A stretch of DNA of 64,000 nt, from positions 6,526,973 to 6,590,972 of the forward strand of contig NZ_CP117430.1 in the NCBI RefSeq assembly GCF_030687395.1. Direction: 5' to 3'. This document shows positions 7,051 through 26,181 of the stretch, one piece after another. A program made the translations under genes and the position numbers. Source of the DNA: Pseudomonas wuhanensis. GTDB lineage: Bacteria > Pseudomonadota > Gammaproteobacteria > Pseudomonadales > Pseudomonadaceae. The notes under the pieces were generated by a model, which made no database searches, was not told the DNA's origin, and was given only the letters and a program-made list of their open reading frames with translations. Position 1 is the stretch's first letter. Every line of letters begins with the position of its first letter.

Positions 7051-8258
7051 CAAGCAGCCGCCTCTTCATGCCAAGGACCAAACGGATCGGGCAATAACTG
7101 CCAGCCCTCGACACCCAAGGCCATTTCAGCATCCGTCAGCAGGCAGTTATCTAGCTCGACGGTGAGTTGCGCGAAGTCGATGTTTTGGCCGATGAACACC
7201 AGTTCCTGGCGGCAGTCGCCGGTGGTGGTCGTCCAGTTTTCCATGATCCCGGCGGTGCTTTCTTCATCTTGCGGCCACTGGTTTTTCGGCACGAAACGCC
7301 ACCAGCGTCCGGCAAAACCGTGACGCATCAAGCCGCCGGCCTGGGACCAGCTACCAGCGTCCCGGTGTTTGCTGGCCAGCCAGAAATAGCCCTTGGAACG
7401 CAGTAGTTTGCCGTTCACCCACGGACGATCGATAAAGTTGAAGAAGCGTTGCGGATGAAACGGTCGCCGTGCCCGATAAGCCGTGGAGGCGATACCGTAT
7501 TCCTCGGTTTCCGGCACGTGTTCACCGCGCAGTTCCTGTAACCATCCCGGCGCCTGAGCGGCCTTTTCGAAGTCGAAGCGACCAGTGTTGAGAATCTTCT
7601 TGAGCGGTACTTCGCCCATGACCATCGGAATGATTTCAGCCTGGGAATTGAGCCGTTCGAGGATCGCGATCAACTCCTGGCGCTCGCTACTGCTGATCAA
7701 ATCGATCTTGCTGATTAGAATCACGTCGGCGAATTCGATCTGCTCGATCAACAGGTCGGTGATCGAGCGTTCGTCCTCCTCTCCCAGGGTTTCGCCACGG
7801 GACGCAAGGCTTTCGGCGGCCTGATAGTCGAGCAGGAAGTTCATGCCGTCGACCACGGTGACCATAGTGTCGAGCCGCGCGATGTCCGCCAGGCTCTGCC
7901 CTTCTTCATCGCGAAACGTGAAGGTTTCCGCCACGGGCAGCGGCTCGGAAATGCCCGTGGACTCGATCAGCAGATAATCGAAACGACCATCCTTGGCGAG
8001 TTTGCTGACTTCTTCGAGCAAGTCTTCTCGCAAGGTGCAGCAGATGCAGCCGTTACTCATTTCCACGAGTTTTTCTTCGGCACGGTTCAGGCTGACATCG
8101 CGTTGGACTTCGCTGCCATCGATATTGATTTCACTCATGTCGTTGACGATCACTGCGACCCGCAAATTATCGCGATTACGTAGTACGTAATTAAGAAGTG
8201 TACTTTTTCCGGCGCCGAGAAAGCCCGACAGGACGGTCACAGGGAGACGATTGGGCAT
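7050..8258 (-). CDS. zigA: zinc-responsive GTP-binding protein ZigA
   Basis: 402-residue COG0523 GTPase of the ZigA subgroup. Motifs: Walker [14 protein letters not shown] (about residues 9-21), CxCC in [12 protein letters not shown] (about 71-82), [13 protein letters not shown] for guanine recognition, and a long CobW_C domain (about 260-385) with the WFIR-like core. Family members are induced by zinc starvation and act as zinc metallochaperones. The ATG at 8258 has GAGGA in the right place; the longer open frame upstream lies over dksA2 and was discarded. It is 28 bases downstream of dksA2 and coupled to DUF1826, and probably controlled by the Zur box at 8724-8738. Confidence 0.92.
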
Positions 8259-8286
8259 CAGGTATTCCTCATCAGGATGTGGCCGG

Positions 8287-8691
8287 TCAAATCGCCCGTT
8301 GATGGCGTTCGCGCAGCTCTTCACGTTCTTTGGCTTCAATGCACAGAGTGGCGGTGGGTCGCAGCAGCAGGCGCTTGAGGCCGATCGGTTCACCGGTTTC
8401 GCGGCACCAGCCGTACTCGCCGCGAGCCAGGTGTTCGAGGGCTTCGTCGATCTTGTCCAGGAGCTTCTTTTCCCGCTCCAGCAGGCGCAGTTGCCACTGG
8501 CGCTGTTCTTCGGCGCTGCCGATGTCGGCGGGATCGCTGTGGGGTTCCTGCTCACGCAACGCGTCGAACTCGCCGGCAATGCGCTCCTGCAGCTCGCTGC
8601 GCTGAGCCAGTAGCAGCTCGCGAAAGAAGCCTTGCTGGGCGTCGCTCATGTAAGCGGCGGCGGGTTGAGCGAGGAGTTCTTGTTCAGTCAT
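8287..8691 (-). CDS. dksA2: zinc-independent DksA paralogue (DksA2)
   Basis: 134-residue RNA polymerase secondary-channel factor of the DksA/TraR family: N-terminal helix, long coiled coil (about residues 20-90) with tip residues [10 protein letters not shown], and a C-terminal zinc-finger remnant. Normal DksA has four Cys; here the positions are C96, T99, C117 and A120, so the finger cannot bind zinc normally. This is the substitution pattern of P. aeruginosa DksA2, which replaces DksA when zinc is scarce. First gene of the minus-strand transcript starting at the Zur box 33 bases upstream of its ATG (8724-8738). Confidence 0.92.
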
Positions 8692-8723
8692 GGCGATGGA
8701 TCATCAGAGCGGGTGTATTTTTA

Positions 8724-8738
8724 TGTTATAGTATAACA
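8724..8738. promoter_or_regulatory. Zur operator in the dksA2 / secreted-protein divergent gap
   Basis: TGTTATAGTATAACA is a perfect inverted repeat around one base and matches the core GTTATANTATAAC of gamma-proteobacterial Zur boxes. It lies 33 bases upstream of dksA2 and 80 upstream of the secreted-protein gene, so it can control both directions. Confidence 0.85.
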
Positions 8739-8818
8739 ATACAATTAAGCCACTCCCCTCTTGCTCGCCACTACAAAGGGCACGATGCTTTAACCCGTCC
8801 GCCCCTTTGAGAAATGCC

Positions 8819-9196
8819 ATGGGAAACGCCCTGAAATTCTCGCTGTTGAGCCTTTCGCTGCTGATCGCGGTCGATGCCTGGGGACAAATTCCGAGCCTGG
8901 CCAACTGCACCCGTAGCGCCAATCTGCTGGCCTGCGTAGATCCCGACGGCAATGCCTACAGCGTTAACACCGTCGGTAGCACGATCTATCTGCGCGGCTT
9001 CGAAGTGGCCGGCAAACGCTATTGGGCGCAAACCAACAGCCGCTATGGGCAACTGACGTTCTTCACGGGCATCGCGTCCGATGGCGAAGCCTGGGTCGGC
9101 TACAACCGCCGGGTTGGCTGGACAACCATCAATCGGTTTTCCAGCTCCGGCGGCAGCAGCGGCAAGTTCACGTGTAGCCGGATGACCGGCTGCTAG
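8819..9196 (+). CDS. small secreted protein, probably zinc-regulated
   Basis: 125 residues with a Sec signal peptide (residues 6-18 hydrophobic, likely cleavage near AWG-Q). The mature part has four Cys (NCTRS, LACVD, FTCSR, TGC at the very end) and is Gly/Ser/Tyr-rich, so a small disulfide-bonded periplasmic or exported protein is likely. I do not recognise the family. The ATG at 8819 is preferred over the TTG at 8807 because it gives a cleaner signal peptide. It is divergent from dksA2 across the Zur box and overlaps the amidase convergently by four bases at the stop codons. Confidence 0.72.
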   Translation: MGNALKFSLLSLSLLIAVDAWGQIPSLANCTRSANLLACVDPDGNAYSVNTVGSTIYLRGFEVAGKRYWAQTNSRYGQLTFFTGIASDGEAWVGYNRRVGWTTINRFSSSGGSSGKFTCSRMTGC

Positions 9197-10401
9197 GCCT
9201 GCGCCTTTTTCTGTTCCTGCTGCCAGGCGATATAGCTGTTCATCGGTGGGTTCTTCTGAAAATAGCGCTGCAAACCTTCGAATAAACCATCCGCCACGGC
9301 TTGCTGATGGCGGGCAGTCACCAGTCGCTGGCTGTCGCGGGCGTTCGAGATAAAGCCGGTTTCCACCAGAATCGACGGCACATCCGGCGACTTCAACACA
9401 GCGAATCCTGCTTGTTCCACGCGCTTCTGATGCAGCGTGGTGATGCCCGCCAGGCTGCCGAGCACCGTGCTGCCCAGCTGCAAACTGGCGGCGATGGTGG
9501 CGTTCATCGACATGTCGAGAATTACCCCGGCGAGCATCGGATCCTTGTCCTTGAGATTGAGCAGGCTGGTGGCGCCCAGCAGGTCTGCACCGTTCTCCCG
9601 TTGCGCCATGAAGCGCGCCGTGGCCGAGGTCGCGCCACCTTCGGACAGGCAGTACACCGACGCACCTGAAGCGGTCAGACGCGGCGCTGCATCGGCATGA
9701 ACCGAGATGAACATGTCGGCCTTGTGCTTGCGGGCAATCTCCACGCGCTTGCGCAGCGGGACGAAGAAGTCGTCGTTGCGCACCAGTTTCACGTCGAAGC
9801 CCTTCTCGCGCTTCAGTCGCTTGGCCAGCAATTGGGCGATCGACAGCACCACGTCTTTTTCCCGCTCGCCTTTGGCACCGACCGCGCCCGGGTCTTTGCC
9901 GCCGTGACCAGGGTCGACCACCACGATGATGTCGCGCTTGGGGTGAGCCTTGTCGGTGACGGGTTCAGGTTTTTCCGACGGCACCGCCGCGATATGCAGC
10001 GGCGCAGCGCTCTTCAGATCGAGCACCAATCGGTGCCCCTGCCCGTCCTGGGGCGGCAGCAGGAAACTGTTGAGCTGCACCGGGCCGCTGAGGTCGAGGA
10101 CGATCCGCGTATCGCCCTGGCCGAAATGTCCGGAGCGAATTGAGCGAATCACCGTGTTGCTGAGTGCCAACTGACTGAAGTCGCCACTGTGATTGGCGCC
10201 ACTCAGATCGATGATCAGCCGCTCCGGAGCGCTCAGGGAAAACGTCTTGTATTGCACCGGCCCGCTCAGATCGAACACCAGTCGCAGCTTGTCGTCCGAA
10301 CGCCACAGTCGTGTATTGCGAATTTGCGTGGCCGATGCCCCAAAAGGTAACGCGAAGGCCGCGCTGGCCAGAATCAGGTTGAGCAAGTGACGTCTGTGCA
10401 T
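9193..10401 (-). CDS. N-acetylmuramoyl-L-alanine amidase, AmiC type
   Basis: 402-residue periplasmic amidase that cleaves the amide between MurNAc and the stem peptide of peptidoglycan, usually at the septum. The start MHRRHLLNLILAS looks like a Tat signal; an AMIN domain follows (about residues 28-130), then Amidase_3 (about 160-385) with zinc ligands in DPGHGGKDPGA and SVHADA and the catalytic Glu in VETGFISN, all retained. It is thus a second amidase that still needs zinc. It starts 40 bases from the bidirectional Zur box, as does the amiA paralogue in the equivalent P. aeruginosa cluster. Confidence 0.9.
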   Translation of the reverse strand: MHRRHLLNLILASAAFALPFGASATQIRNTRLWRSDDKLRLVFDLSGPVQYKTFSLSAPERLIIDLSGANHSGDFSQLALSNTVIRSIRSGHFGQGDTRIVLDLSGPVQLNSFLLPPQDGQGHRLVLDLKSAAPLHIAAVPSEKPEPVTDKAHPKRDIIVVVDPGHGGKDPGAVGAKGEREKDVVLSIAQLLAKRLKREKGFDVKLVRNDDFFVPLRKRVEIARKHKADMFISVHADAAPRLTASGASVYCLSEGGATSATARFMAQRENGADLLGATSLLNLKDKDPMLAGVILDMSMNATIAASLQLGSTVLGSLAGITTLHQKRVEQAGFAVLKSPDVPSILVETGFISNARDSQRLVTARHQQAVADGLFEGLQRYFQKNPPMNSYIAWQQEQKKAQA

Positions 10402-10441
10402 GATGAAAGCTCGTTCACGAAAAAGGCATCGTCGATTTGAT

Positions 10442-10456
10442 TGTTATAATATAACA
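10442..10456. promoter_or_regulatory. Zur operator in the amidase / folE2 divergent gap
   Basis: TGTTATAATATAACA is a perfect 15-base palindrome with the Zur core. It sits in a 74-base gap between the divergent amidase and folE2 genes, 20-40 bases from each start, well placed to repress both transcripts when zinc is sufficient. Confidence 0.9.
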
Positions 10457-10475
10457 TGCCAAATCAACTCCCACG

Positions 10476-11384
10476 ATGGACCTGCTCATGAACGCGCTGA
10501 CTCTGCCGGATATCGCCGCGCAGGCCTCACGCCAAGCCCTGCCACTCGATTGGGTGGGCATGTGCGGCATTGCTCTTCCTGTTTTATTCGATGGCCAGCG
10601 ACTGAGCGCAAAGGTCGACGCTGGCGTTAGCCTCGACGATGGAGAGGCGCGCGGCATCCATATGTCGCGGCTGTATCTGGCGTTGGAAATGCTTGAGCAG
10701 GAAAACCTTTCGCCCGCGTTATTGCGGCGAGTCTTGCAGAGTTTTCTTGAGACCCATGAAGGGCTTTCCCATAACGCTTACCTGAAAATTCACACCGAAC
10801 TATTGCTCAAAAGACCTGCGCTTATCAGTCCGCTAGCCGGTTGGAAAACTTATCCGGTGAGCATCGAAGCCAGTTTGAAAAACACGATGTTCCACGTGGA
10901 ACTAAAAATCGACGTTCCTTATTCCTCAACCTGCCCGTGCTCAGCAGCACTTTCGCGGCAGTTGATTCAGCAACAATTCGTTGATGACTTTGCCAACAAG
11001 TCGCTGCAACACGCCGACGTTCTGGCTTGGCTCGGCTCCACGAAAGGAATCGTCGCCACGCCGCATAGCCAACGCAGCAATGCGCAATTGCAGCTGCGAC
11101 TGGACGACTATCTGGATGACCTGCCGCTGATCGCCACGATCAACGATGCCGAAGCAGCCCTCGGCACTGCCGTGCAAACCGCCGTGAAACGCGCCGACGA
11201 ACAAGCCTTCGCCCTCGCCAACGGCCAGAACCTGATGTTCTGCGAAGACGCCGCCCGACGCTTGAACCTGGCCCTGAAACGCTCACCGGGCATCAACGCC
11301 TTTCACGTGCGAGTCGTTCACGCCGAAAGTCTTCACGCCCACGATGCTGTCGCCGAAAGTCGCTGGAATTGGGAGGTCGCATGA
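10476..11384 (+). CDS. folE2: GTP cyclohydrolase FolE2 (type IB)
   Basis: 302-residue GTP cyclohydrolase IB, making 7,8-dihydroneopterin triphosphate for folate. Unlike FolE, type IB accepts metals other than zinc, so it backs up folate synthesis in zinc starvation. The family core is visible: DWVGMCGIALP near residues 25-35, the SHNAYLKI segment, the catalytic Cys region YSSTCPCSAALSRQ (about 149-162) and the C-terminal HAHDAVAE. A second ATG at 10488 (MNALTLPD) is an equally good start. First gene of a seven-gene operon behind the Zur box; a parS-type site lies inside at 10888-10903. Confidence 0.93.
   Translation: MDLLMNALTLPDIAAQASRQALPLDWVGMCGIALPVLFDGQRLSAKVDAGVSLDDGEARGIHMSRLYLALEMLEQENLSPALLRRVLQSFLETHEGLSHNAYLKIHTELLLKRPALISPLAGWKTYPVSIEASLKNTMFHVELKIDVPYSSTCPCSAALSRQLIQQQFVDDFANKSLQHADVLAWLGSTKGIVATPHSQRSNAQLQLRLDDYLDDLPLIATINDAEAALGTAVQTAVKRADEQAFALANGQNLMFCEDAARRLNLALKRSPGINAFHVRVVHAESLHAHDAVAESRWNWEVA
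10888..10903. other. parS: parS-type ParB binding site
   Basis: TGTTCCACGTGGAACT matches the bacterial parS consensus, with a perfect central palindrome GTTCCACGTGGAAC. It lies within folE2 and is identical, including the flanking TAAA, to the site at 23109-23124. ParA and ParB are encoded at 54.7-56.4 kb. Confidence 0.88.
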
Positions 11385-12049
11385 TCCAATGCCAAGCGTT
11401 GCGCTGGGGTGCACCCGGTCAACCGCTCACTCCGTCGATGGATTTCCAGTTACCCAAAGGAAGTCTGACCGCCGTCATCGGTGCCAACGGATCGGGTAAA
11501 AGCAGTCTGCTGAAAGTCATCGCCGGTCTGCAAAAGCCATTGACCGGCAAAGTCATCATTGATGTTCCACGCAAAGGCGGCCTTTCGTTCCTGCCTCAGC
11601 AACAACACCTGGACCGGCAATTCCCCATCAGTCTGCAAGAGTTGGTGGCCGCGGGTTTCTGGGGCAACAAGCAAGCTCCGGAAATTCGCAGCCAGCGCCT
11701 CAAGTCTGCGCTGGAAGACTGGTGCCTGACCGGCCTGGAACATCGCCCCTTGATGGCCCTCTCCGGAGGCGAATTGCAGCGTGCCCTGCTCGCCCGGTTG
11801 AGTCTCGCCGAAGCGCCTTTGTTGTTGCTCGACGAACCCCACGCCGCGCTCGACGAACTCGGCCAGGCGCTGCTCTGGAAACACATCCACGCTTGGCATG
11901 CCGAAGGCCGAACCTTGGTCGTTGTGTGTCATGACTTGGCCGCCGTGCGCCAACACATCCCACATGCCCTATTGATCAAAAGCAGCGGCTGCGTCCTCGG
12001 TCTCAGTACCGATCTGATTCGCCAACAGCCCCAGACGCAGGTGGCTTGA
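11381..12049 (+). CDS. metal (zinc-type) ABC transporter ATP-binding protein
   Basis: 222-residue ABC ATPase of the ZnuC/AztA group. Motifs: Walker A GANGSGKSS (about residues 34-42), Q-loop in FLPQQQHLD, signature LSGGELQRALLARL, Walker B LLLLDEP with the D-loop AALD, and the switch His in VVCHD. The ATG at 11381 overlaps the folE2 stop as ATGA and has GGGAGG six bases upstream, so translation is coupled. It would energise the permease next door. The short C terminus lacks the extra domain of E. coli ZnuC. Confidence 0.9.
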   Translation: MIQCQALRWGAPGQPLTPSMDFQLPKGSLTAVIGANGSGKSSLLKVIAGLQKPLTGKVIIDVPRKGGLSFLPQQQHLDRQFPISLQELVAAGFWGNKQAPEIRSQRLKSALEDWCLTGLEHRPLMALSGGELQRALLARLSLAEAPLLLLDEPHAALDELGQALLWKHIHAWHAEGRTLVVVCHDLAAVRQHIPHALLIKSSGCVLGLSTDLIRQQPQTQVA

Positions 12050-12915
12050 TGATCGCTGCCGCTCAGCTTTGGCAACCGTTCCACGAATTCGTATTCATGC
12101 GCCGGGCGTTGCTTGGTGGTCTCGTTCTGGCATGCAGCACCGCTCCGCTTGGGGTGTTTCTGATCCTGCGGCGCATGAGCCTGATCGGCGACGCGGTGGC
12201 TCACGGCATCTTGCCCGGTGCCGCATTGGGCTTCTGGTTTGCCGGGTTGAGTCTGCCCGCGTTGACCATCGGTGGCCTCGGCGCTGGCCTGAGCATGGCC
12301 GGACTGGCCGCCTGGATCACCCGGCGCACCGGCCTGCGGGAAGACGCGAGCCTGGCCGCGATCTACCCGATATCGCTGGCCAGCGGCGTGCTGATCCTCG
12401 GCATCGCCGGCAAGCGTCTGGACCTGTTGCACCTTCTGTTTGGCTCCGCACTGGCGGTCGACGGGCCGACTTTGACCGGCATGATTTGGGTTTCAGGCTT
12501 CAGCCTGATCGCCATGGCCCTCATCTACAAACCCCTGTTGCTGGACACCCTCGACCCGCTCTTTCTGCAAACCGTTAGCCGCCTCGGGCCTCTGGCTCAC
12601 GGGGTATTTCTGACGTTGGTGGTGCTGAACCTGGTGATCGGTTTCCAGGCAATCGGCGCGTTGATGGTGGTCGGTTTGATGATGTTGCCGGCCGCGGCTT
12701 CTCGCTTCTGGAGCCGCCGCTTGCCGGTACTGATCGCGATCGCCGCGCTGCTCGGCTGCCTTTCGGTCTGGCTTGGTTTACTGCTGTCGTTCTACTACTC
12801 GCTGCCCAGCGGCCCGGCGATCGTGCTGGTGGCTGGCGCTTTATATCTGCTGTCCGTGGTGTTCGGTCCGGTGCACGGTTTGCTACGCCGCCCGCCTTTG
12901 CTCACATCCCAATGA
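12049..12915 (+). CDS. metal ABC transporter permease
   Basis: 288-residue inner-membrane permease of the ABC-3 (ZnuB/AztB) family with about eight hydrophobic segments. Recognisable stretches are PLGVFLILRRMSLIGDAVAHGILPGAALGF (in two parts, about residues 26-60) and the conserved VVGLMMLPAAASRFW near 205-220. The ATG overlaps the preceding stop as TGATG. It would form the channel for the metal delivered by the binding protein encoded next. Confidence 0.9.
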   Translation: MIAAAQLWQPFHEFVFMRRALLGGLVLACSTAPLGVFLILRRMSLIGDAVAHGILPGAALGFWFAGLSLPALTIGGLGAGLSMAGLAAWITRRTGLREDASLAAIYPISLASGVLILGIAGKRLDLLHLLFGSALAVDGPTLTGMIWVSGFSLIAMALIYKPLLLDTLDPLFLQTVSRLGPLAHGVFLTLVVLNLVIGFQAIGALMVVGLMMLPAAASRFWSRRLPVLIAIAALLGCLSVWLGLLLSFYYSLPSGPAIVLVAGALYLLSVVFGPVHGLLRRPPLLTSQ

Positions 12916-12926
12916 GGTGTTACCCG

Positions 12927-13802
12927 ATGCGCGCTTTACTCGTGCTGTTCAGTTTGATGCTGTCGATGTCGGTGTCTGCCGCGGAAAAACTCCAGGTAGT
13001 CACCAGCTTCAGCATCCTCGCCGACATGACTCATCAGGTCGGCGGCGACCATATTCAGATCACCAACATGGTCGGCCCGGACGCCGATGCCCATACTTAC
13101 GAGCCGACTCCGGACGATGCCAAGGCATTGCTCAAGGCCAGACTGATCATCAAGAACGGGCTAGGTTTCGAGCCATGGCTGGACCGTCTGGTGACCAGCA
13201 CCGAGACCAAAGCTGCAGTCATCAGCGCCAGCCATGGTGTCATTCCACGCTCGCTGGATGAAGACGGCGAAACCATTCCCGACCCACACGCCTGGCACAA
13301 CCTGGCGAACACCGAGCTGTACATCAGCAACATCACCAAAGCGCTGATCGCCGCCGACCCGGCCAACCAAACCGACTACGAACACAACAGCCAGGCCTAC
13401 CTGAAAAAGATCTACGCCTTGCTCGCCGTAGCCAAAGCCAAGCTCGGCTCGCTGCCGCCGGGTAATCGCAAAATCGTGACCTCCCATGACGCCTTCGGCT
13501 ATCTCGGTCAGGCTTACGGCATCGACTTCATGGCGCCACAAGGACTGTCCACCGAACGCGAACCGTCGGCCGCCGAAGTCGCTGCGCTGATCACGCAAAT
13601 CCGTCAGGCCAAGGTCAAAGCGGTGTTCATGGAAAACATCAAGGACGCGCGCCTGCTCAAGCAAATCGCCGATGAAAGCGGTGCGCATATCGGCGGCACG
13701 CTGTACTCCGATGCCCTCGCGGCGACCGGCCCGGCCAGCACGTTCGCCGGGTTGTTCGAATACAACCTCAACACCTTGTATGAGGCGTTGAGCAAACCAT
13801 GA
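12927..13802 (+). CDS. metal ABC transporter substrate-binding protein
   Basis: 291-residue periplasmic cluster A-I binding protein (ZnuA/AztC group). Sec signal peptide residues 1-18 (cleavage after VSA-A). Candidate ligands: His in DADAHTYEPTP, His in DPHAWHNLAN, His in SHDAFGYLG, and Glu/Asp in STEREPS and YSDALA. It lacks the long His/Asp-rich loop of ZnuA, like AztC-type proteins. The ATG at 12927 was preferred to 12912 because TGAGGTG lies just upstream and the signal peptide then starts correctly. With the two genes before it, it makes a complete zinc importer, probably additional to ZnuABC elsewhere. Confidence 0.9.
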   Translation: MRALLVLFSLMLSMSVSAAEKLQVVTSFSILADMTHQVGGDHIQITNMVGPDADAHTYEPTPDDAKALLKARLIIKNGLGFEPWLDRLVTSTETKAAVISASHGVIPRSLDEDGETIPDPHAWHNLANTELYISNITKALIAADPANQTDYEHNSQAYLKKIYALLAVAKAKLGSLPPGNRKIVTSHDAFGYLGQAYGIDFMAPQGLSTEREPSAAEVAALITQIRQAKVKAVFMENIKDARLLKQIADESGAHIGGTLYSDALAATGPASTFAGLFEYNLNTLYEALSKP

Positions 13803-14359
13803 TCCGCAAGAATCCTTCAGGCGATCTGCCGTCGATTGCAGAGTCGGCGTACGTGGATAAAACCGCCATCATCTGCGGCAAAGTGGTGATCGGCGAGAAC
13901 GTGTTCGTCGGTCCGTACGCGGTCATTCGCGCCGATGAAGTGGATGACTCGGGCGAGATGGAAGCGATCACCATCGGTGCCAATTCGAACATCCAGGACG
14001 GCGTGGTGATTCACTCCAAGTCCGGCGCGGCGGTGACCATCGGCGAGTTCAGCTCCATCGCCCACCGCTCCATCGTGCACGGCCCCTGCACCGTCGGTAA
14101 CCGCGTGTTCATCGGGTTCAACAGCGTGCTGTTCAACTGCGCCGTGGGCGATGGTTGCGTGGTGCGGCACAACTCGGTGGTCGACGGTCGTGACTTGCCC
14201 GAAGCCTTCTACGTACCCTCCACCACGCGCATCGGCCCCAACACTGACCTGTCGCAGTTCCCACCGGTGAGCGTCAGCGCCTCGGAATTTTCCGAGGACG
14301 TGGCGCGCACCAACGTCGATCTGGTGCGGGGCTACAAAGCCCTGCAAAACGAGTTCTGA
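13799..14359 (+). CDS. gamma-carbonic anhydrase family protein
   Basis: 186-residue left-handed beta-helix (hexapeptide repeat) protein with the three metal-ligand His of gamma-class carbonic anhydrases: GVVIHSK (about 74), and SIAHRSIVHGP (about 92 and 97). Gamma-class enzymes can use iron or cobalt in place of zinc, so this probably covers CO2/bicarbonate interconversion when zinc-dependent anhydrases fail. The hexapeptide repeats run from about 20 to 150. The ATG overlaps the binding-protein stop as ATGA. A transferase with the same fold cannot be excluded, but the His triad argues against it. Confidence 0.87.
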   Translation: MIRKNPSGDLPSIAESAYVDKTAIICGKVVIGENVFVGPYAVIRADEVDDSGEMEAITIGANSNIQDGVVIHSKSGAAVTIGEFSSIAHRSIVHGPCTVGNRVFIGFNSVLFNCAVGDGCVVRHNSVVDGRDLPEAFYVPSTTRIGPNTDLSQFPPVSVSASEFSEDVARTNVDLVRGYKALQNEF

Positions 14360-14361
14360 CC

Positions 14362-15699
14362 ATGAGCAGCGTGCTGATTCGCAACGCCCGGCTGGTCAAT
14401 GAAGGTCGTGAATTCGACGGTGATTTGCTGGTAAGCCACGGTCGCATCGTCAAGATCGCCAGCAGTATCGAAGGTGAAACGGCCACCGTGGAAATCGACG
14501 CCAACGGCCAATGGCTACTGCCGGGCATGATCGATGATCAGGTGCATTTCCGCGATCCCGGAGCGCCGGACAAAGGCAGTTTCCATACCGAATCGAGGGC
14601 AGCTGTAGCCGGCGGCATCACCAGCTTCATGGACATGCCCAACACCTCCCCGGCCACCCTGACCCTCGCCGCGCTGGCCGACAAGAAGCGCCGAGCAGCG
14701 ACCAGCTCAGTGGCCAATTACGGTTTTCATTTCGGCGTGAGCAATGACAATCTCGACACCGTCGCCGCGCTCAATCCTAGCGAGGTGGCCGGGGTCAAAG
14801 TGTTCATGGGCGCCTCCACCGGCAACATGCTGGTGGACAACCCACGGATACTCGAGCGGCTCTTCGCCGAAGTGCCGACCATTTTGTTGGCTCACTGCGA
14901 ACACACGCCCAGCATCGAAGCCAATGCCGCGAGCCTGCGAGAACTGTTTGGCGAGCACCTGCCGCCCGCCGCCCATCCGCTGATCCGCAACGCCGAAGCG
15001 TGCTTTCGATCCTCCTCGATGGCCGTCGATCTGGCCCGGCGACACGGCACTCGCTTGCATGTTTTGCATCTGACTACCGCCCGCGAACTGGCGCTGTTCG
15101 AAGACAAGCCGCTGGCACAGAAACACATCACTGCCGAAGTCTGTCTGCACCACTTGCTGTTCGACGACCGCGACTACCCGAGCCTCGGCAACCTGATCAA
15201 ATGCAACCCGGCGATCAAGACCCGGGCCGACCGCGACGCCTTGCGCAACGCATTGTTGAGCAATCGACTGGATGTGATCGGCAGCGATCACGCGCCTCAT
15301 ACCTGGGCCGAAAAACAACGGCCCTATAGCCAAGCGCCGTCCGGCTTGCCGTTGGTGCAACACACCCTGCCCGCGTTGCTGGAGCTGGTGGCCGATGAGG
15401 TCTTGCCGATCACTACCCTTGTGGCCAAGACCAGTCACCGGGTCGCCGATCTGTTTGCCATCCCCGACCGCGGCTACCTGCGCGAAGGCTATTGGGCCGA
15501 CCTGGTGTTGATCAAACCCGAGCCCGATGGCGTTGCGGTTTCCCGGCAACCCATCCTCTCGCAATGCGGCTGGACGCCCTTCACCCACCATCGTTTTCGC
15601 CACAGCGTCAGCACCACGGTCGTGTCGGGGCAAATTGCCTGGCACAACCAACGTCTTAATGACAGCTGCCAGGGTTTAGCCCTACGGTTTATGCGCTAG
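14362..15699 (+). CDS. dihydroorotase paralogue (PyrC2/PyrQ type)
   Basis: 445-residue amidohydrolase-fold dihydroorotase, closing the pyrimidine ring (carbamoyl aspartate to dihydroorotate). Motifs: IDDQVHFRDPG (about 57-67), where the usual H-x-H is Q-x-H; VKVFMGAS with the Lys that is normally carboxylated; AHCEH; HVLHLTT; and GSDHAPH near 305. The Q at the first metal position matches a known dihydroorotase subclass and suggests a mononuclear, zinc-sparing site. It lies two bases after the carbonic anhydrase gene, within the Zur-driven operon. Confidence 0.88.
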   Translation: MSSVLIRNARLVNEGREFDGDLLVSHGRIVKIASSIEGETATVEIDANGQWLLPGMIDDQVHFRDPGAPDKGSFHTESRAAVAGGITSFMDMPNTSPATLTLAALADKKRRAATSSVANYGFHFGVSNDNLDTVAALNPSEVAGVKVFMGASTGNMLVDNPRILERLFAEVPTILLAHCEHTPSIEANAASLRELFGEHLPPAAHPLIRNAEACFRSSSMAVDLARRHGTRLHVLHLTTARELALFEDKPLAQKHITAEVCLHHLLFDDRDYPSLGNLIKCNPAIKTRADRDALRNALLSNRLDVIGSDHAPHTWAEKQRPYSQAPSGLPLVQHTLPALLELVADEVLPITTLVAKTSHRVADLFAIPDRGYLREGYWADLVLIKPEPDGVAVSRQPILSQCGWTPFTHHRFRHSVSTTVVSGQIAWHNQRLNDSCQGLALRFMR

Positions 15700-15733
15700 C
15701 GCGCGTTATCGAAAACATTCGAGAACACCGATC

Positions 15734-16612
15734 ATGATCCACATCACCCTACCCGATGGTTCATTGCGTGAGTACGATCAGCCGCTGACTGTGTATGAAG
15801 TCGCTGCAACTATCAGTCTCGGGTTGGCCAACGCGGCGGTGGCCGGTCGAGTCGACGGCGTGTTGGTGGACTGTGGATTCCTCATCGAGGGCGATGCCCG
15901 GGTCAGTATCGTCACGCCCCAGGAGCCCGATGGTCTGGAGATTCTTCGGCGTTCCTGCGCGCTGATGCTGGCCATGGCCGTCAAACAACTCCATCCGAAC
16001 GCGCAGTTGCGGGCCGGATCGTCGCTGGGTGATGGCTTCTTTTATGAGTTTGCTTTCCAGCGCTCCTTGACTCTGGCCGAGCTGCCCCTGATTGAAGCGC
16101 GCATGCATGCACTGGCGGCGACCAACCATTCGATCCGTCCAACTGAACGGTTATCGCTGTATCGCTTGGGGGATTTTGAAAGTTTCGCTGCAGGCCCGCA
16201 TGTTCCCACCACCAAGGTGTTACAAGCCTTCGCTCTGGACCATATCAGCGGCACGTCGCAGCAACGGATCTACGGCACGTGCTGGTCCAGCCAACAGGAG
16301 CTGGACAACTGGCGAGCACCGCCGCAGGTGATGGTCGTGAACATCGATGAGCGTCAGACCGCTTATGCACACTCGGTGACCGAGACGCTGCGCCGCCGCG
16401 GACTGCGGGCCAACTCGGACCTGCGTAACGAAAAAATCAGCCACAAGATTCGCCAGCACAGCCGGAAAGTGCCGTATCTGTTGGTGGTGGGAGAGAAGGA
16501 AAAGGAAGGCAGGTTTGTCAGTATTCGCAGCAGCAGCGGAGAGGACTTCGGGGAGAAAGGGATTGAAGCGGTGTGTGAATTGTTGAATCCGCCCAAGACT
16601 GGAGGCGTCTGA
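15734..16612 (+). CDS. threonyl-tRNA synthetase-like protein without catalytic core
   Basis: 292 residues that align along ThrRS at both ends but skip the middle. Residues 1-60 are a TGS domain (MIHITLPDGSLREYD). About 61-190 is an editing-domain relic: the HxxxH of ThrRS is replaced (SCALMLAMAVKQL), and the CRGPH cysteine is Ala (FAAGPHVP). At about 192-200 the text passes from IYGTCWSSQQELDNW directly into APPQVMVVNIDERQ, the start of the anticodon-binding domain (about 197-290, with ADLRNEKI-type NSDLRNEKISHKIRQH). The zinc-binding class II catalytic core is absent, so it cannot charge tRNA. Last gene of the Zur operon, 34 bases after pyrC2. Confidence 0.88.
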   Translation: MIHITLPDGSLREYDQPLTVYEVAATISLGLANAAVAGRVDGVLVDCGFLIEGDARVSIVTPQEPDGLEILRRSCALMLAMAVKQLHPNAQLRAGSSLGDGFFYEFAFQRSLTLAELPLIEARMHALAATNHSIRPTERLSLYRLGDFESFAAGPHVPTTKVLQAFALDHISGTSQQRIYGTCWSSQQELDNWRAPPQVMVVNIDERQTAYAHSVTETLRRRGLRANSDLRNEKISHKIRQHSRKVPYLLVVGEKEKEGRFVSIRSSSGEDFGEKGIEAVCELLNPPKTGGV

Positions 16613-20166: not shown

Positions 20167-22077
20167 TCACACCTCATCCTTAAGCTTGAGTAGGGGTTCC
20201 TCAAAGCGTAGCAAACGTCCGGCATTACCGAGCACTAATAACGTGCTCAAGTTATGCAACAAGGCGGCAATCATCGCCCCTGCCGCGCCAAGCCAGCCGA
20301 ATGCGGCGAACGCGACGATGGCCAGGGTCCAGCCCAACCCGATGATCACGTTGACCTGCAAGGTCTGGCGGCATTGGCGACTCAAGCGCACGCAGGTTCC
20401 GAGCCGGCGCAGGTCGCTACCGATCAGTACGATATCGGCCGAGGCCAGCGCGATGTCCGCACCGCCTGCGCCCATGGCCACGCCGACCACACCGGCCTTG
20501 AGCGCCAGGGAATCGTTGATGCCGTCTCCCACCACCATCGGCCGGAATCCGCTGCCGATTTCTTTCAGCACACGATTGAGTTTGTCCTCGGGCAAGGCCT
20601 GGGCTTCGACATCGCTGATACCCACATCCCGGGCCAGCGTATGCGCAACGCTTTGCCGATCCCCGGTGAGCAACAACTGACGACCCAAACCCAGCTCACG
20701 CAATTCGCTCAGGGCAAACCGCGCCTCAGGTTTGATACTGTCAGCGAGCAACAGCCAGGCGAGAAATTCACCGTTGAGTGCCAGCCCCGCAATCGGGCCG
20801 TCGTGTTCGGGAACCGCGGATGTAGCGATGCCTAATTGCGCGAACAGCTCCCGACGACCGAGGGCCGCCTCGCCCTGCTCGGTCATCGCCACTACACCCA
20901 GCCCCTGACGCTCGTGAATATCGGAGAGCAACAGAAAGTGTTCCTGAGTGACCAACCCGGCCAAGGCACGGCTGACCGGGTGGCTGCTGGCGGAACCGAG
21001 GCTGGCGGCGAGTTTCAATACGTGACTGCGATCCTCCAGCGGGCTGTCGATGGACTGCAGGCGCAAGGTGCCGAACGTCAGGGTTCCGGTCTTGTCGACC
21101 ACCAACGACGTCAAGTCAGCCAACTCTTCGAGGAACGCCGAGCTGCGAATCAGAATCCCGTGCCGAGCCGCCACCGCCACCCCGGCAATGGCCGTGGCCG
21201 GTGCGGACAACACCAACGCACAAGGGCAAGCCGCCACCAACACTGCGAGCATCGCTTGCGCGTCGTTGGTTATGAACCAGGTCACGGCCGCCAGCAACAA
21301 CACCAGCACCATGTAGCTGCCGGCGTAGCGTTCGAGCAAACGCGTTATCGGAGGTTTGGAACGTTCGGCGCTTTGCATCAGCGCGATGACTTTACCCAGG
21401 GTCGATTCCTGCCCCGTGCGGGTCACTTCGATGCGCAGCAGGCCATCAAGATTGATCGCCCCGCCGAACACCGGCATGCCCACGCCGGCTTCTATTGGCA
21501 CCGACTCACCGGTGATTGACGCGGTGTCGAGGCTTGCCTGACCGGACAATACCCGGCCATCCGCCGGCACTCGATCACCGGCACGCACCTCCACAAGGTC
21601 GCCAGCCCTGAGTGTGCCGTTGTCGACTTCAACCACGGAACCGTCAGCCTGAATCTTGCGTGCATGGCTGCGAGTCAGTTTGCCGAGGGCATGAATCGCT
21701 TCCTGGGAACCGATCACGCTGCGCTCCTCCAGCACGTGACCGAAGATCATGATGATCGGCAGCAGAGCCGCAGTGAGCAGATCGCCTGTCGCCCAGGCGC
21801 CGATCATGGCCAGGGCAATCAACTGATCGGTGATCCCGTGCAGGCTCGGATAACGCAGGCTGTACCACGCCGAACGCATGACCGGCACGGCCACCAGCAA
21901 GGAGGCAAAACCCAGCAGCAATTGGCTGACACCGGTCTGCTCCGGCGATAACCAGCGCCAGATCAGGCCCAGCGCAAGCAACCCCAGCGCAAGCATGGCC
22001 AGGGTCAACTGGCGCGCGGCGCTACGTTGTTCAGCCGAGGAAAGCATGCTCGGCGCGGCGGCGGTTTGGGCGGTCAT
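20167..22077 (-). CDS. heavy-metal P1B-type ATPase
   Basis: 636-residue metal pump. Motifs in order: actuator loop ITGES (about 190), the transmembrane metal site AACPCALVLS (about 285), phosphorylation site VVDKTGTLTF with the catalytic Asp (about 329), hinge GDGINDSLAL (about 520). No N-terminal heavy-metal-associated (CxxC) domain is present. The last helix reads HNLSTLLVLGNAGRLL, not the Asp-containing form of ZntA, so the metal is uncertain (zinc, cadmium or cobalt). The ATG overlaps the preceding SPFH gene's stop as ATGA. Last gene of a four-gene operon headed by a Zur-like dyad. Confidence 0.9.
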   Translation of the reverse strand: MTAQTAAAPSMLSSAEQRSAARQLTLAMLALGLLALGLIWRWLSPEQTGVSQLLLGFASLLVAVPVMRSAWYSLRYPSLHGITDQLIALAMIGAWATGDLLTAALLPIIMIFGHVLEERSVIGSQEAIHALGKLTRSHARKIQADGSVVEVDNGTLRAGDLVEVRAGDRVPADGRVLSGQASLDTASITGESVPIEAGVGMPVFGGAINLDGLLRIEVTRTGQESTLGKVIALMQSAERSKPPITRLLERYAGSYMVLVLLLAAVTWFITNDAQAMLAVLVAACPCALVLSAPATAIAGVAVAARHGILIRSSAFLEELADLTSLVVDKTGTLTFGTLRLQSIDSPLEDRSHVLKLAASLGSASSHPVSRALAGLVTQEHFLLLSDIHERQGLGVVAMTEQGEAALGRRELFAQLGIATSAVPEHDGPIAGLALNGEFLAWLLLADSIKPEARFALSELRELGLGRQLLLTGDRQSVAHTLARDVGISDVEAQALPEDKLNRVLKEIGSGFRPMVVGDGINDSLALKAGVVGVAMGAGGADIALASADIVLIGSDLRRLGTCVRLSRQCRQTLQVNVIIGLGWTLAIVAFAAFGWLGAAGAMIAALLHNLSTLLVLGNAGRLLRFEEPLLKLKDEV

Positions 22078-23132
22078 TGCGCTGCTCCCTGAATGATCAG
22101 GCGGGAATCGTCTTTCGGATCAACCGTGGTCACCGAGCCGGCTTGCCCGAGAATCTTCGGCATCCGTTCACGGTAAATACGCAGCAGCATTTGCGGGTCG
22201 GTGCCCTGCTGTTGCGCCTTGGCCAAACTCAGCACCGTGGCGGTGTCGGCAGAGGCTTTAGCCAAGCGTTCGCTGGCTTGGGCGTGAGCCACTTGCAGCG
22301 TGCGGTCGGCTTGTTCATTGGCGCTCTGAGTCAGCTTCTCGGCTTCAGTGCGCGCGTTGGCCACGGCTTTGTCGGCCTGCTGGCTGGCGGTTAATACTGC
22401 GTTGAACGCATTCACCGCCGGAGCGGGCAGACTCGATTGCACATCGACCCGCTCCACTTCGATGCCCAACCCCTGCCCGGTCGCCGTCAGTTCGGCCAAG
22501 CGTTGATTGATGCCCCGCACCAGATCGCCGCGTAGACGTTCGCGGCGCTCAGCGGCCTGATTGTCGGCACCGATCAGTTCCGGTCGCGCCACCAGAATGG
22601 TGTCCAGATCTCGTGCGGCAGTGAGCGCCACCGCGCTGCGGGTCACCAGCCGATCTAGGGCCGGCAGCACATGCTCAGCCTGAAGAACAAAGGCATAGGG
22701 CTCGGTGACTTTGTAGAACACCCGCACATCCAGTTGCACCACCCCTGCATCACCGGTCAACAAATAGCCGGAGCCGGCGAGCGCATCGCTGATGGGTGTG
22801 GCGAAACTCGCCACTCTATCCGCCTGCAATGCAGCATCCGTGCGCAGCAGATTTTCCACCCGACGCTCGATCACCCGATCCGCTGCCGGCAACAAGATTA
22901 CCTGCTCAAACGGGCGCGGCCATGCCAACAGCAAACCGGCATTTTGAATGCGATCCAGTGCGCCGAAGTGCAGCACCACGGCACGATTTTGCGGGTCGAT
23001 TTGCCGCACATTGGAGAATGCCCAAGCCAAAGCAGCCAACACGGTCACGGCGTATAGCGCCAAAAAAGCCAAGCGCCCGGCCTGAATCCAGGGACTGCTC
23101 AACTCATGTGTTCCACGTGGAACTAAACTCAT
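22074..23132 (-). CDS. SPFH/band 7 protein, HflK-like
   Basis: 352 residues. One membrane segment (about 19-42) is followed by a periplasmic or cytoplasmic-face SPFH domain (about 45-230, QIDPQNRAVVLHFGALDR) and a long Ala/Glu/Gln coiled coil (about 235-310) typical of HflK/HflC, stomatins and flotillins. These proteins form large membrane rings that scaffold proteases or transporters. Overlaps both neighbours by four bases (ATGA). A parS-type site lies at its start (23109-23124). It is unlike the hflKC pair normally next to hflX, so it is a separate paralogue. Confidence 0.85.
   Translation of the reverse strand: MSLVPRGTHELSSPWIQAGRLAFLALYAVTVLAALAWAFSNVRQIDPQNRAVVLHFGALDRIQNAGLLLAWPRPFEQVILLPAADRVIERRVENLLRTDAALQADRVASFATPISDALAGSGYLLTGDAGVVQLDVRVFYKVTEPYAFVLQAEHVLPALDRLVTRSAVALTAARDLDTILVARPELIGADNQAAERRERLRGDLVRGINQRLAELTATGQGLGIEVERVDVQSSLPAPAVNAFNAVLTASQQADKAVANARTEAEKLTQSANEQADRTLQVAHAQASERLAKASADTATVLSLAKAQQQGTDPQMLLRIYRERMPKILGQAGSVTTVDPKDDSRLIIQGAAQ
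23109..23124. other. parS: parS-type ParB binding site
   Basis: TGTTCCACGTGGAACT, identical to the site at 10888-10903 including the following AAA. It covers the first codons of the HflK-like gene and constrains their sequence. Confidence 0.88.
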
Positions 23133-24178
23133 GGCTGCGACCCGGACTTGTTATCGAGCGTCGGCGGACCGTCAACCAACACCCGGAACGGTGCCGCATC
23201 GGTGCGCAAAATCAGTTTGGTACCCGGCGTGACGATGGTGCCCAAGGTGTCGAGAGAGCGCAGCAAGTTATAGAGCTGCGGCGAACCGGCGTAGGCACGG
23301 CCATAAATCTGAGCGGCTTCGACGCGGGATTGGGCTTCAATGTCCGCGGCTTTCACTGTCGCATCGGCTTGCACGATTCGCGCATCACGCTCGGCCGCGG
23401 AGCGAATTTGCGCAGCTTCACGCTTGCCGATGGCCGTGCGCTCAGTGGCGATGGTTTCACGCTCGGCGCGCATACGATCGACAGTCGCGGTGAGCGTCAC
23501 CGACGGCAGGGTCAAACGCTCGATGCCGACTTGCAGCACTCGCACGCCATAAGTGGTGAGCAACTGCTGATCGATCTGCTGACGCAGCTGCGCTTCAAAA
23601 TCGGCGATGCGCACTTGGTTGGCATCGGTGTTCACCAGGTTGGCCAGATCGAAACTGCTGGCGGTGGTTTCCAGCGCCGAGCCGACAAAAGTGCGAATCT
23701 GCCGCGCGGCTTCATCCGGCTGGTTCTGCACGGCGCGCATAAAGCGTTGCACGTTGTCCGGATCACCCTGCACCTGCCAGGCCACGTAGGCTTGCACAAT
23801 GATGCGCAGACCATCGCGCGTGCCCACATCCTGCAAACCGCTGGAAGTTGTGCGCAGGCGCAGATCTACCGGAATCGCCGCCTCGAACGGTGCCGGCCAG
23901 CGCCAGCCAAGACCGGGTTCCAGCAACACCCGCGATGGATTACCGAAGCGAGTGATGACCGTGGCCTCTCCCGAACGCACTTGCACCAGGCTCGCCGCCG
24001 CAATGGCAAACGCCATCAGTAGCGCCGCCCAACCCATTCGCCGCCACGGGAAAGGGCCAGCTTCGTGTGGATCACCGTGGTGATGATGGTGATGGCCGTG
24101 GTGATGCCCGCCATGGCCGTGATCATGGCCGGCGTGATCATCGTGATCGCGATTGTGTGTAGGCTTCGGCTGGCTCAA
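23129..24178 (-). CDS. SPFH/HflC-like protein with His-rich N terminus
   Basis: 349 residues. The N-terminal 40 residues contain about 17 His (HDDHAGHDHGHGGHHHGH, then HHHHHHGDPHE), then a membrane segment (about 50-67), an SPFH domain (about 70-245, VRSGEATVITRFGNPSRV) and a C-terminal coiled coil with HflC-like QIYGRAYAGSPQLYNLLRSLDTL. The His tail lies before the first membrane segment and looks like a zinc/nickel buffer. The start is TTG at 24178, overlapping the upstream stop; AGGAG seven bases upstream supports it. The next ATG would remove the His region. Confidence 0.83.
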   Translation of the reverse strand: MSQPKPTHNRDHDDHAGHDHGHGGHHHGHHHHHHGDPHEAGPFPWRRMGWAALLMAFAIAAASLVQVRSGEATVITRFGNPSRVLLEPGLGWRWPAPFEAAIPVDLRLRTTSSGLQDVGTRDGLRIIVQAYVAWQVQGDPDNVQRFMRAVQNQPDEAARQIRTFVGSALETTASSFDLANLVNTDANQVRIADFEAQLRQQIDQQLLTTYGVRVLQVGIERLTLPSVTLTATVDRMRAERETIATERTAIGKREAAQIRSAAERDARIVQADATVKAADIEAQSRVEAAQIYGRAYAGSPQLYNLLRSLDTLGTIVTPGTKLILRTDAAPFRVLVDGPPTLDNKSGSQP

Positions 24179-26139
24179 TGGACGGCTCCTGGCTGAACGG
24201 TATTACGCGCCGGCGCAGGGTCAGCCGGCAGCGTGAAAGTACGTAGGTCGATGGTCGGCGCATTGCTGCTGCCGCCCAGACGATGATCGAGAACCAGCAG
24301 CTTGGCGTTGGCCAAACCTTGAGTCAGTTGACTGAGGTATTGCTCCAGCACGAAGGCCTGGCCGGCGCTGGAGTAAGCCTTTTGCTCGGCGGCAAATTTC
24401 AGGTCGGCAGCCTGAGCGGTCGAGTTGATTTCATGAGCACTGGCCGTGGCTTGATCGTGAGCGATACTGGCTTGCAATTGCGCTTGGTTGGTCGCCTCCG
24501 CCGCAGCACCGCGCTCACGGGAAATCAATGCCTGAGCACCAATCTGCGCCGCTTGCACGCCGTGATAAGCGTTGGCCGCCCCCGCTGGCGGGTGGATGGC
24601 TTCAACCACCGTGGCCAGAATTTCCACGCCGCTGTCGAGTTTTTGCAGGTCAGCCTGCACGGCGCGGCCGATCTCTTCGGCGAGCCCTACCCTGTCCTCG
24701 CCGAGCAAACCATCGAGCGTTCGCGAGGCGAAGTCGTGGACCAGAATCCGGCTAGCGGTGCTGCGGATCAACGTTGGTACGTCGGCGCTGTTGTAAGTCG
24801 CGGCCAGCGCCGCCTGATCACTCAAGCCGATGCGATAGACGAAGCGCACGTCCATGTTGACGATCTGGAAGCTCTGTTTGTCAGCGCGGCGGCTGGCGAT
24901 GACCTGGGATTTGTCGTTCACATGGCTGGCGTCCCACAAGCGATTGGCAATCGCTGGTGCGGGGCCTTCAGCTGGTTCGGTCGCGACCGGTGCCGATGTT
25001 TCGCCCACGCTGGTGGCCAACTCGTGGACCACACCGTTTTCGACGCTCAGCACGCGACCCAGCGGCCATGGCAAACCGGCGTGCAAACCAGGACCGAAAA
25101 CTTCTACCGGTTTGCCAAAGCGCTCATAGATACCGCGCCCTTGCAGCGCAATTTCGTGAATGCCGGTGAGCGACCAACCGATGATTACCACCACCACCAG
25201 CACCGGCAAAAACGCCCGACGCATGTAGGTGAAGGCCCAGATTTGTCGCAGGTCGATACCGAAGCGGTTGTGCAGTTCGTGCTGCAATGCGAGCAATGGT
25301 TGCGGCGGCCAGCGCAGCATGTCGGCGACGAAGCTTCGCGCCAGCAAGGCTGGTTCCAACTGTTCACGACGAGGACTGAACAGCGACAACACGGCCCGCA
25401 GCAGCAACTCGATGGCGACCAGCCCCGGCAGCAAGCCGATCAGTACCGCCAGACGCACCGGCCAGACCGATGTTTCGCTGCCGAACAACAAACACAGGGC
25501 GCTGAGCACCAGGCAACTAATCGCGACCCGCGTCAGCTGCGCCAACGGCTCCGCTTCGGGCCATTGGGCGATATTTTCCTGCGCCAGTTGCCGCTCCAGC
25601 ACCAGCAAACCAAAAGCCAGCAGCAACGATAGCGCGGCGCCGACACTGGCCGACAACCCTAACGCGGCGGGCGGCAAGGTCAGATTCCAGACTTGCTCGA
25701 TGCTGTACAACGTCAACAACGCCCAGCCGCCAAGCCAAAGCGTCGGGGCACCGATCTGCCCCAGCAAGCGCAACCAACGCTGGCTGATCCGGTCCAGCAA
25801 CCGCTCATACCAGCCTTCAGCGGCAACGACTTCCTCGGCGACAACCACCGGCACTAACACAGCCGGATTCATCGCCCGTGCGCGCCATAGCGTCACCCAC
25901 CAGGCCGATTGCAGGCCGGCGACCAGCACCAGCAAACCCGCGCTCTGATTGACCAACAACGCCGGCCAAAGCGACTGCGGCGCAAACAGTCCGACAAAAA
26001 ACGCCAGTACCAATCCTGTTGCCGCCAAGGCCCCGAAACCGATAGCGAATTGCCGCAATCGACGTCCTTGAACGACTGCCTGCTGAAAGCGCGGCAGCCC
26101 TGTTATCTGTGCTCCATCGCCATCGAGATCGATTTGCAT
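24175..26139 (-). CDS. polytopic SPFH/HflK-like protein
   Basis: 654 residues. Unusually, the SPFH domain (about 345-560, starting GRGIYERFGKPVEVFGPGLHAGLP) is preceded by about seven membrane helices in the first 340 residues; ordinary HflK has one. The C terminus is an Ala/Gln-rich coiled coil. First gene of a four-gene overlapping operon (SPFH, SPFH with His tail, SPFH, P1B ATPase). Its ATG lies 24 bases from a Zur-like dyad. A membrane platform for the metal pump is a reasonable inference; no direct function is known to me. Confidence 0.82.
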   Translation of the reverse strand: MQIDLDGDGAQITGLPRFQQAVVQGRRLRQFAIGFGALAATGLVLAFFVGLFAPQSLWPALLVNQSAGLLVLVAGLQSAWWVTLWRARAMNPAVLVPVVVAEEVVAAEGWYERLLDRISQRWLRLLGQIGAPTLWLGGWALLTLYSIEQVWNLTLPPAALGLSASVGAALSLLLAFGLLVLERQLAQENIAQWPEAEPLAQLTRVAISCLVLSALCLLFGSETSVWPVRLAVLIGLLPGLVAIELLLRAVLSLFSPRREQLEPALLARSFVADMLRWPPQPLLALQHELHNRFGIDLRQIWAFTYMRRAFLPVLVVVVIIGWSLTGIHEIALQGRGIYERFGKPVEVFGPGLHAGLPWPLGRVLSVENGVVHELATSVGETSAPVATEPAEGPAPAIANRLWDASHVNDKSQVIASRRADKQSFQIVNMDVRFVYRIGLSDQAALAATYNSADVPTLIRSTASRILVHDFASRTLDGLLGEDRVGLAEEIGRAVQADLQKLDSGVEILATVVEAIHPPAGAANAYHGVQAAQIGAQALISRERGAAAEATNQAQLQASIAHDQATASAHEINSTAQAADLKFAAEQKAYSSAGQAFVLEQYLSQLTQGLANAKLLVLDHRLGGSSNAPTIDLRTFTLPADPAPARNTVQPGAVH

Positions 26140-26162
26140 ACCATCTCAGCCTCACATCGCAA

Positions 26163-26181
26163 TTCGTTACGATATAACGAA
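26163..26181. promoter_or_regulatory. Zur-like dyad upstream of the SPFH-ATPase operon
   Basis: TTCGTTA-CGATA-TAACGAA is a 7+7 inverted repeat. Its inner core GTTA-N5-TAAC has exactly the spacing of the two strong Zur boxes (GTTATANTATAAC), but the spacer and outer bases differ, so affinity may be lower. It starts 24 bases upstream of the first SPFH gene. Confidence 0.55.

Follow-up and report, generated by a model that had tools for sequence, protein, structure and literature searches.

Four genes on the minus strand of a 64,000-nucleotide stretch of the Pseudomonas wuhanensis genome (contig NZ_CP117430.1, positions 6,526,973 to 6,590,972; hereafter the window) encode three SPFH proteins and a P1B-type metal ATPase, and this operon corresponds to the hmtA cluster of P. 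aeruginosa, PA2439-PA2434, in which hmtA is PA2435. We propose that the four genes specify one inner-membrane unit for zinc shortage, combining an HmtA-type pump with its own HflK/HflC-like SPFH assembly and a histidine tail that buffers metal, a proposal we consider evenly poised between right and wrong. That they make up a four-gene genetic unit is well supported, and the fact that they are kept together across bacterial groups and plasmids hints that the scaffold is dedicated to the pump. The locus belongs to a known cluster, and it is the reading of it as a module that is new among SPFH partnerships.

From open reading frames and Pfam and TIGR family matches, with a tree (K1, K2) and a structural model (K1) in addition, we assign K1 (24175..26139) as a multi-helix SPFH protein of 654 residues on the HflK side (PA2439-type), C (23129..24178, with a TTG start) as an HflC-like SPFH protein of 349 residues (PA2438-type), K2 (22074..23132) as an HflK-like SPFH protein of 352 residues (PA2437-type) and the last gene (20167..22077) as an HmtA-type P1B ATPase of 636 residues. 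An earlier note, made by a model from the sequence of this region, had described four genes with 4-bp overlaps and three SPFH proteins, and both descriptions stand: the coordinates give an overlap of exactly 4 bp at all three junctions, and the Band_7 family of Pfam, with a cut-off of 23.6 bits, scores 69.8 bits in K1 (E 3.8e-19), 109.8 bits in C (E 2e-31) and 67.2 bits in K2 (E 2.5e-18), which places all three in the SPFH superfamily. The ATPase reaches 518.3 bits with TIGR01525 (cut-off 346.25) and also passes TIGR01512, as a P1B ATPase should.

Support for a unit can be found first in its distribution. Independent searches for K1 and for the ATPase gave identical lists of genomes, 88 of 149 in the genus, 11 of 398 in the phylum and 4 of 79 in a further family, and no genome in these partly overlapping sets had K1 alone or the ATPase alone at the cut-offs used (1e-30 or 1e-25 for K1, 1e-140 for the ATPase). 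The best three to eight candidates per genome were scored in the searches of 149, 398 and 274 genomes. Among the matches listed the weakest for the ATPase has an E of 2.6e-242, so this ATPase clade is sharply set off. Two further searches were made with K1 only: among 274 genomes of the class the sole match was the genome of the window itself, and in the family to which G254 belongs (81 genomes) G254 alone matched.

The order K1-C-K2-ATPase is kept in all 117 loci that hold the four genes. These loci include overlapping stretches and come, with the window, to 111 distinct sets after short duplicates (L163-L186) are dropped; 25 of the 117 had start-codon trouble, were absent from one pass and were recovered for a pass of 114 sets. 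K1 also matches ten plasmid records, seven from Rhizobium and one each from Klebsiella, Paraburkholderia and Burkholderia, and of five records examined, the four that are annotated carry the same four genes in the same order. Two of the plasmids, from Klebsiella aerogenes (L201) and Burkholderia ubonensis (L203), are typed as conjugative, and on the plasmid of Paraburkholderia sprentiae (L202) a zinc ABC transporter operon lies ~3.5 kb away from the cassette and a gene for a PCu(A)C copper chaperone 0.7 kb away. The earlier note had named a lack of co-occurrence outside this strain as the outcome that would count against it; with the cassette present in Pseudomonas, in other groups and on plasmids, we reject the idea of a strain-specific oddity in favor of a cassette that is widespread though patchy. 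In a tree of sequences from Pseudomonas, one Rhizobium-type copy and two copies from another gammaproteobacterial family, K1, C and K2 each form one clade (Shimodaira-Hasegawa-like approximate likelihood ratio support 99-100), with K1 and K2 on the HflK side and C beside HflC and a stomatin-like protein, although long outgroup branches make this placing unsure. Distances between sets, taken protein by protein in 109 sets, are correlated among the four at 0.94-0.97, a level that shared species history alone could produce.

The second line of evidence is the histidine-rich tail of C, residues 1-43 (24050..24178, minus strand), which contains 16 His, where the earlier note had counted about 17, and precedes the single predicted transmembrane helix. 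An Arg-Arg pair stands directly before this helix, and the positive-inside rule, together with the orientation of HflC, the SPFH part of which is periplasmic (PMC2636767), would put the tail in the cytosol. A tail with at least six His is present on C in 110 of the 111 sets. As 80 loci came from C patterns that include the His run, and 11 further stretches were retrieved with a C query, the 22 sets drawn by K1 rather than by C are the fairer test, and 21 of these have it. The single exception among the 111, L199, has a pump tail with four His, so that some His-bearing tail occurs in every set, most often on C. The model of C, of low confidence (mean predicted local distance difference test score 57.6) and too poor for a fold search, consists of the tail, one transmembrane helix, the SPFH part and a long helix.

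What might such a tail do for the pump? The only Pfam families listed for the pump are E1-E2_ATPase and Hydrolase, from which we conclude that the ATPase has no separate metal-binding domain, as the earlier note had held. The note's further idea that the tail supplies what the pump lacks agrees with the near-universal tail on C, but 29 of the 111 pumps have at least four His of their own before the first helix (59 have none, and the window pump has no His run), so replacement of a lost pump domain by the His tail holds only in part.

In its core the pump is conserved. The CPC metal motif (residues 284-286; 21220..21228, minus strand) is found in 111 of 111 sets. In the last helix, alignment to 4umv and 7qbz places an HNLST motif at residues 608-612 (20242..20256, minus strand), and HN.ST occurs there in 109 of 111 pumps, the remaining two sequences stopping before it. 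DKTGT is present in the window pump and in 111 of the 114 sets scored for it; the remaining three were counted as misses without individual inspection. The best matches among solved structures are 7qbz, named as cadmium-translocating, and 4umv, named as a zinc-transporting ATPase (ZntA). The latter shares CPC and DKTGT with the window pump but has ADTGAT in place of HN.ST, whereas 7qbz has HEGST at that position and SPC instead of CPC; the window pump further differs from P1B ATPases of both types in having no separate N-terminal metal-binding domain.

A third line of evidence concerns zinc control. A Zur-like dyad recognized by pattern counts and upstream alignment lies at 26163..26181, with its core, GTTACGATATAAC, at 26166-26178; read on the minus strand it is GTTATATCGTAAC, the 5' end of which is 39 bp upstream of the K1 ATG. 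The earlier note had stated that the dyad keeps the GTTA-N5-TAAC core of two strong boxes, and this is correct in that the pattern occurs three times in the window against 0.07 expected, the other two being perfect boxes found by pattern match before a dksA2-like gene (8725..8737) and between an amidase gene and a putative folE2-like gene (10443..10455). The dyad itself is asymmetric, one half agreeing with the consensus and the other having CG where TA is expected. Over the 6.59-Mb genome the pattern occurs at 20 places and a reversed control pattern at 95, so that the site is rare, not enriched. With at most one mismatch to GTTATANNATAAC, the Zur-type palindrome, there are 11 places genome-wide, among them GTTATATCGTAAC of the operon, which differs from it at one position. 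Four of them lie at the operon, dksA2, the amidase/folE2 pair and a zinc-uptake gene of the ZrgA family (Pfam PF10986), and the P. aeruginosa counterparts of the genes at these four places belong to the zinc-starvation response; at the other seven we recognized no zinc-related gene in the translated starts.

Conservation of the box points the same way. Of 140 loci one was too short for the box count; among the 128 distinct upstream regions, 108 have the strict GTTA-N5-TAAC core no more than 250 bp from K1. The other 20 agree with the 12-position consensus at 9 or 10 positions in 16 cases, at eight in three and at six in one. The distance from box to K1 varies from 39 to 110 bp, and the five inner positions of the box, which were outside the selection pattern, carry a mean of ~1.6 bits against 0.7 in the flanks. 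In five copies shuffled sequences reach the best box score in 2.6-7.4% of trials, which makes L199 and the four shuffled Pseudomonas copies without a strict core (L126, L127, L132, L187) borderline. From counts, conservation and shuffles together, we reject a chance dyad for most Pseudomonas copies and for three of four copies in family f14. The single promoter-like site listed by a sigma-70 scan is on the plus strand, and the scan listed no minus-strand site close to the dyad. Zinc control of the window operon is likely.

Such control is not new, as published data on zinc and Zur in P. aeruginosa make clear; it was already on record for PA2439-PA2434, with conflicting data for hmtA mRNA. In a znuA mutant, PA2434, PA2435 and PA2437-PA2439 were reported to increase by factors of 5.6 to 14.4, the Zur site predicted there being weak (PMC4542158), and purified Zur was reported to shift the PA2439 promoter in a zinc-dependent manner (PMC8531726). 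The PA2435 and PA2437-2439 proteins were higher without zinc, significantly, according to the authors, for PA2438 (by one method) and PA2439 (PMC11761036); calprotectin raised HmtA (PMC8557868), and N-acetylcysteine slightly raised PA2437-2439 (log2 0.6-0.8; PMC9431628).

That we are dealing with HmtA orthologues is indicated by locus L187, the C protein of which aligns over 312 residues, at 95.5% identity, with P0202, a protein labelled P. aeruginosa. In this comparison, made with L187 in place of PAO1, identity to the window is 58% in K1, 84% in C, 69% in K2 and 81% in the ATPase, which lies behind the same SPFH trio, and by position and product names the PA2439-PA2434 cluster likewise has the trio and the ATPase. 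L187 differs in that its pump has a His run, which the window pump lacks, and in that ~600 bp with a 162-residue open reading frame separate K2 from the ATPase, where the window genes overlap by 4 bp. This gap could separate the expression of hmtA from that of the SPFH genes, which might account for zinc responses that differ in P. aeruginosa, whereas for the overlapping genes of the window tight coupling would be expected. The 162-residue frame (9981-10469 of L187) has no Pfam match, and a DUF4946 gene (12477-13022) follows the ATPase.

How might the unit work? With plentiful zinc Zur would repress the operon. In zinc shortage K1, C and K2 would co-assemble beside or around the pump, by analogy with HflK/C, which assembles around FtsH (PMC13220708), and metal would be held beside the cytosolic mouth of the pump by the His tail of C, on the cytosolic side, and by that of some pumps. 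Were the pump an importer, as HmtA is reported to be, the tail would receive the zinc.

Several observations weigh against this proposal. Of the 149 genomes of the genus, 61 have no match. Genes of one operon would also co-occur if they were simply inherited and transferred together, and contact of the SPFH proteins with the pump is putative. The box is no better than in shuffled sequences (31-97%) in six copies (L128, L200, L201, L202, L203 and L204), namely those of two Rhizobium plasmids, a Rhizobium-type genome, Klebsiella, Paraburkholderia and Burkholderia. For P. aeruginosa, hmtA mRNA was reported to stay low, with no repression by added zinc, in the same paper that describes the promoter shift (PMC8531726), and a review calls hmtA an exception to Zur binding, which conflicts with that mobility shift result (PMC10393844). 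Finally, the membrane domain of K1 is weakly conserved: the copies of the Rhizobium type, of family f14, of Klebsiella and of Burkholderia are 23-29% identical to the window there, and the Klebsiella copy has a shortened domain.

Is the pump merely a neighbor under the same promoter? The main rival explanation takes the trio to be a form of HflK/C specific to zinc starvation, modulating FtsH, itself a zinc protease, and we regard it as improbable, though the best of the competing explanations. In its favor, C, K2 and K1 resemble HflC/HflK structures in sequence, and PMC9431628 and PMC11761036 point to an FtsH link. Like HflK/HflC of E. coli, the trio draws on both the HflK and the HflC side, but it has three members, of which K1 carries a membrane domain of several helices, and its partner gene encodes a P1B ATPase rather than FtsH. 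All three miss the family cut-offs for HflK and HflC (TIGR01933/TIGR01932), C with 92.6 of 134.4 bits and K2 and K1 with 92.1 and 55.3 of 159.4 bits, whereas a separate, ordinary HflK (377.6 bits over 159.4) and HflC (286.6 over 134.4) in the same genome pass these NCBIfam cut-offs. Against FtsH as client, moreover, every genome with a K1 match in the sets of 149, 398 and 79 also had this pump clade, and no ftsH is listed in the four annotated 15-kb plasmid stretches that carry trio and pump. A dedicated membrane partner for an SPFH gene would have precedents in the QmcA (YbbK)-YbbJ and SPFH-NfeD operons, in which the partner is NfeD (PMC2636767); unlike these, the four window proteins have no NfeD family in their Pfam listing.

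The direction of transport separates our proposal from a second rival, in which the pump exports, either clearing a wrong metal or feeding periplasmic metalloproteins in zinc shortage, with the His tails delivering cytosolic metal. Most P1B ATPases do export (PMC8456098, PMC10393844), as the names given to 7qbz and 4umv would also suggest, and one review asks for confirmation of HmtA import (PMC10393844). Both reviews, however, report that HmtA imports Zn and Cu, and induction by zinc shortage also speaks against export, which we think unlikely. A lipid microdomain in which the SPFH proteins organize several envelope proteins, with a pump link that is regulatory only, agrees with general SPFH biology and with the place of the operon in a wider zinc-starvation response, but linkage to one pump clade, with no exception in the examined genomes, makes it very doubtful.

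A more specific form of the proposed pump-scaffold unit, which we offer as a tentative and rather less probable idea, is a mobile, self-contained pump in a cage: three SPFH proteins, one of them a chimera of a CDF-like fold and an SPFH part, would enclose the P1B ATPase, with His tails at its cytosolic mouth, as a local zinc-handling compartment. If so, a metal pump, and not a protease or NfeD, would be the client of an SPFH assembly, and in the literature, mostly that outside subscription journals and represented in part, we found no description of a pump held in one. Although SPFH cages are widespread, not many of their clients in bacteria are known, and a trio that was always accompanied by one and the same pump offers a clean case for the question "Do SPFH cages organize transporters?" Three zinc-starvation proteins of P. 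aeruginosa that currently carry the label of FtsH modulators would then be seen in a new light, and the trio bears on the unsettled matter of whether and how HmtA imports zinc.

The chimera in this idea rests on K1. The model has seven long helices before the SPFH part (21-52, 58-90, 131-150, 162-186, 196-218, 226-252 and 297-325, the last at lower confidence), as the earlier note had described, plus a shorter one (110-129). Residues 18-258 (25366..26088, minus strand) form a membrane domain with a predicted CDF-like fold, assigned from structure only, a resemblance in fold to CDF zinc transporters and nothing more. In CDF transporters, helices 2 and 5 carry conserved Asp and His residues that form a metal site. 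In 65 K1 sequences the helices have no Asp or His at 90% conservation, no CDF family is among the matches listed for the 65 members (25 of 37 Pfam families, E up to 10), and a PDB profile search with the membrane domain (E up to 10) returned one unrelated match and no CDF. K1 thus differs from YiiP, ZnT1 and ZnT3, and we set CDF homology aside as having no sequence support in these profile searches. In L131 (G034; oriented 8113-10070) K1 is in two overlapping frames near residue 332, through a sequencing error or a real split, and the split point falls between the membrane domain and the SPFH part.

Elsewhere in the genome, a near-consensus Zur-type box stands ahead of the ZrgA-family zinc uptake gene (L208, G000:762047-762059). 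Within the window, ~10 kb from the operon, positions 7050-16612 hold a zinc-starvation island with two perfect Zur-type boxes and genes for a CobW-like GTPase (putative), dksA2, an amidase, folE2 (putative), an ABC transporter with ZnuA, a hexapeptide-repeat protein, a dihydroorotase-like amidohydrolase and a protein like threonyl-tRNA synthetase; the last of these (15734-16612) has no match to the synthetase catalytic domain and consists of TGS, weak SAD and anticodon-binding domains.

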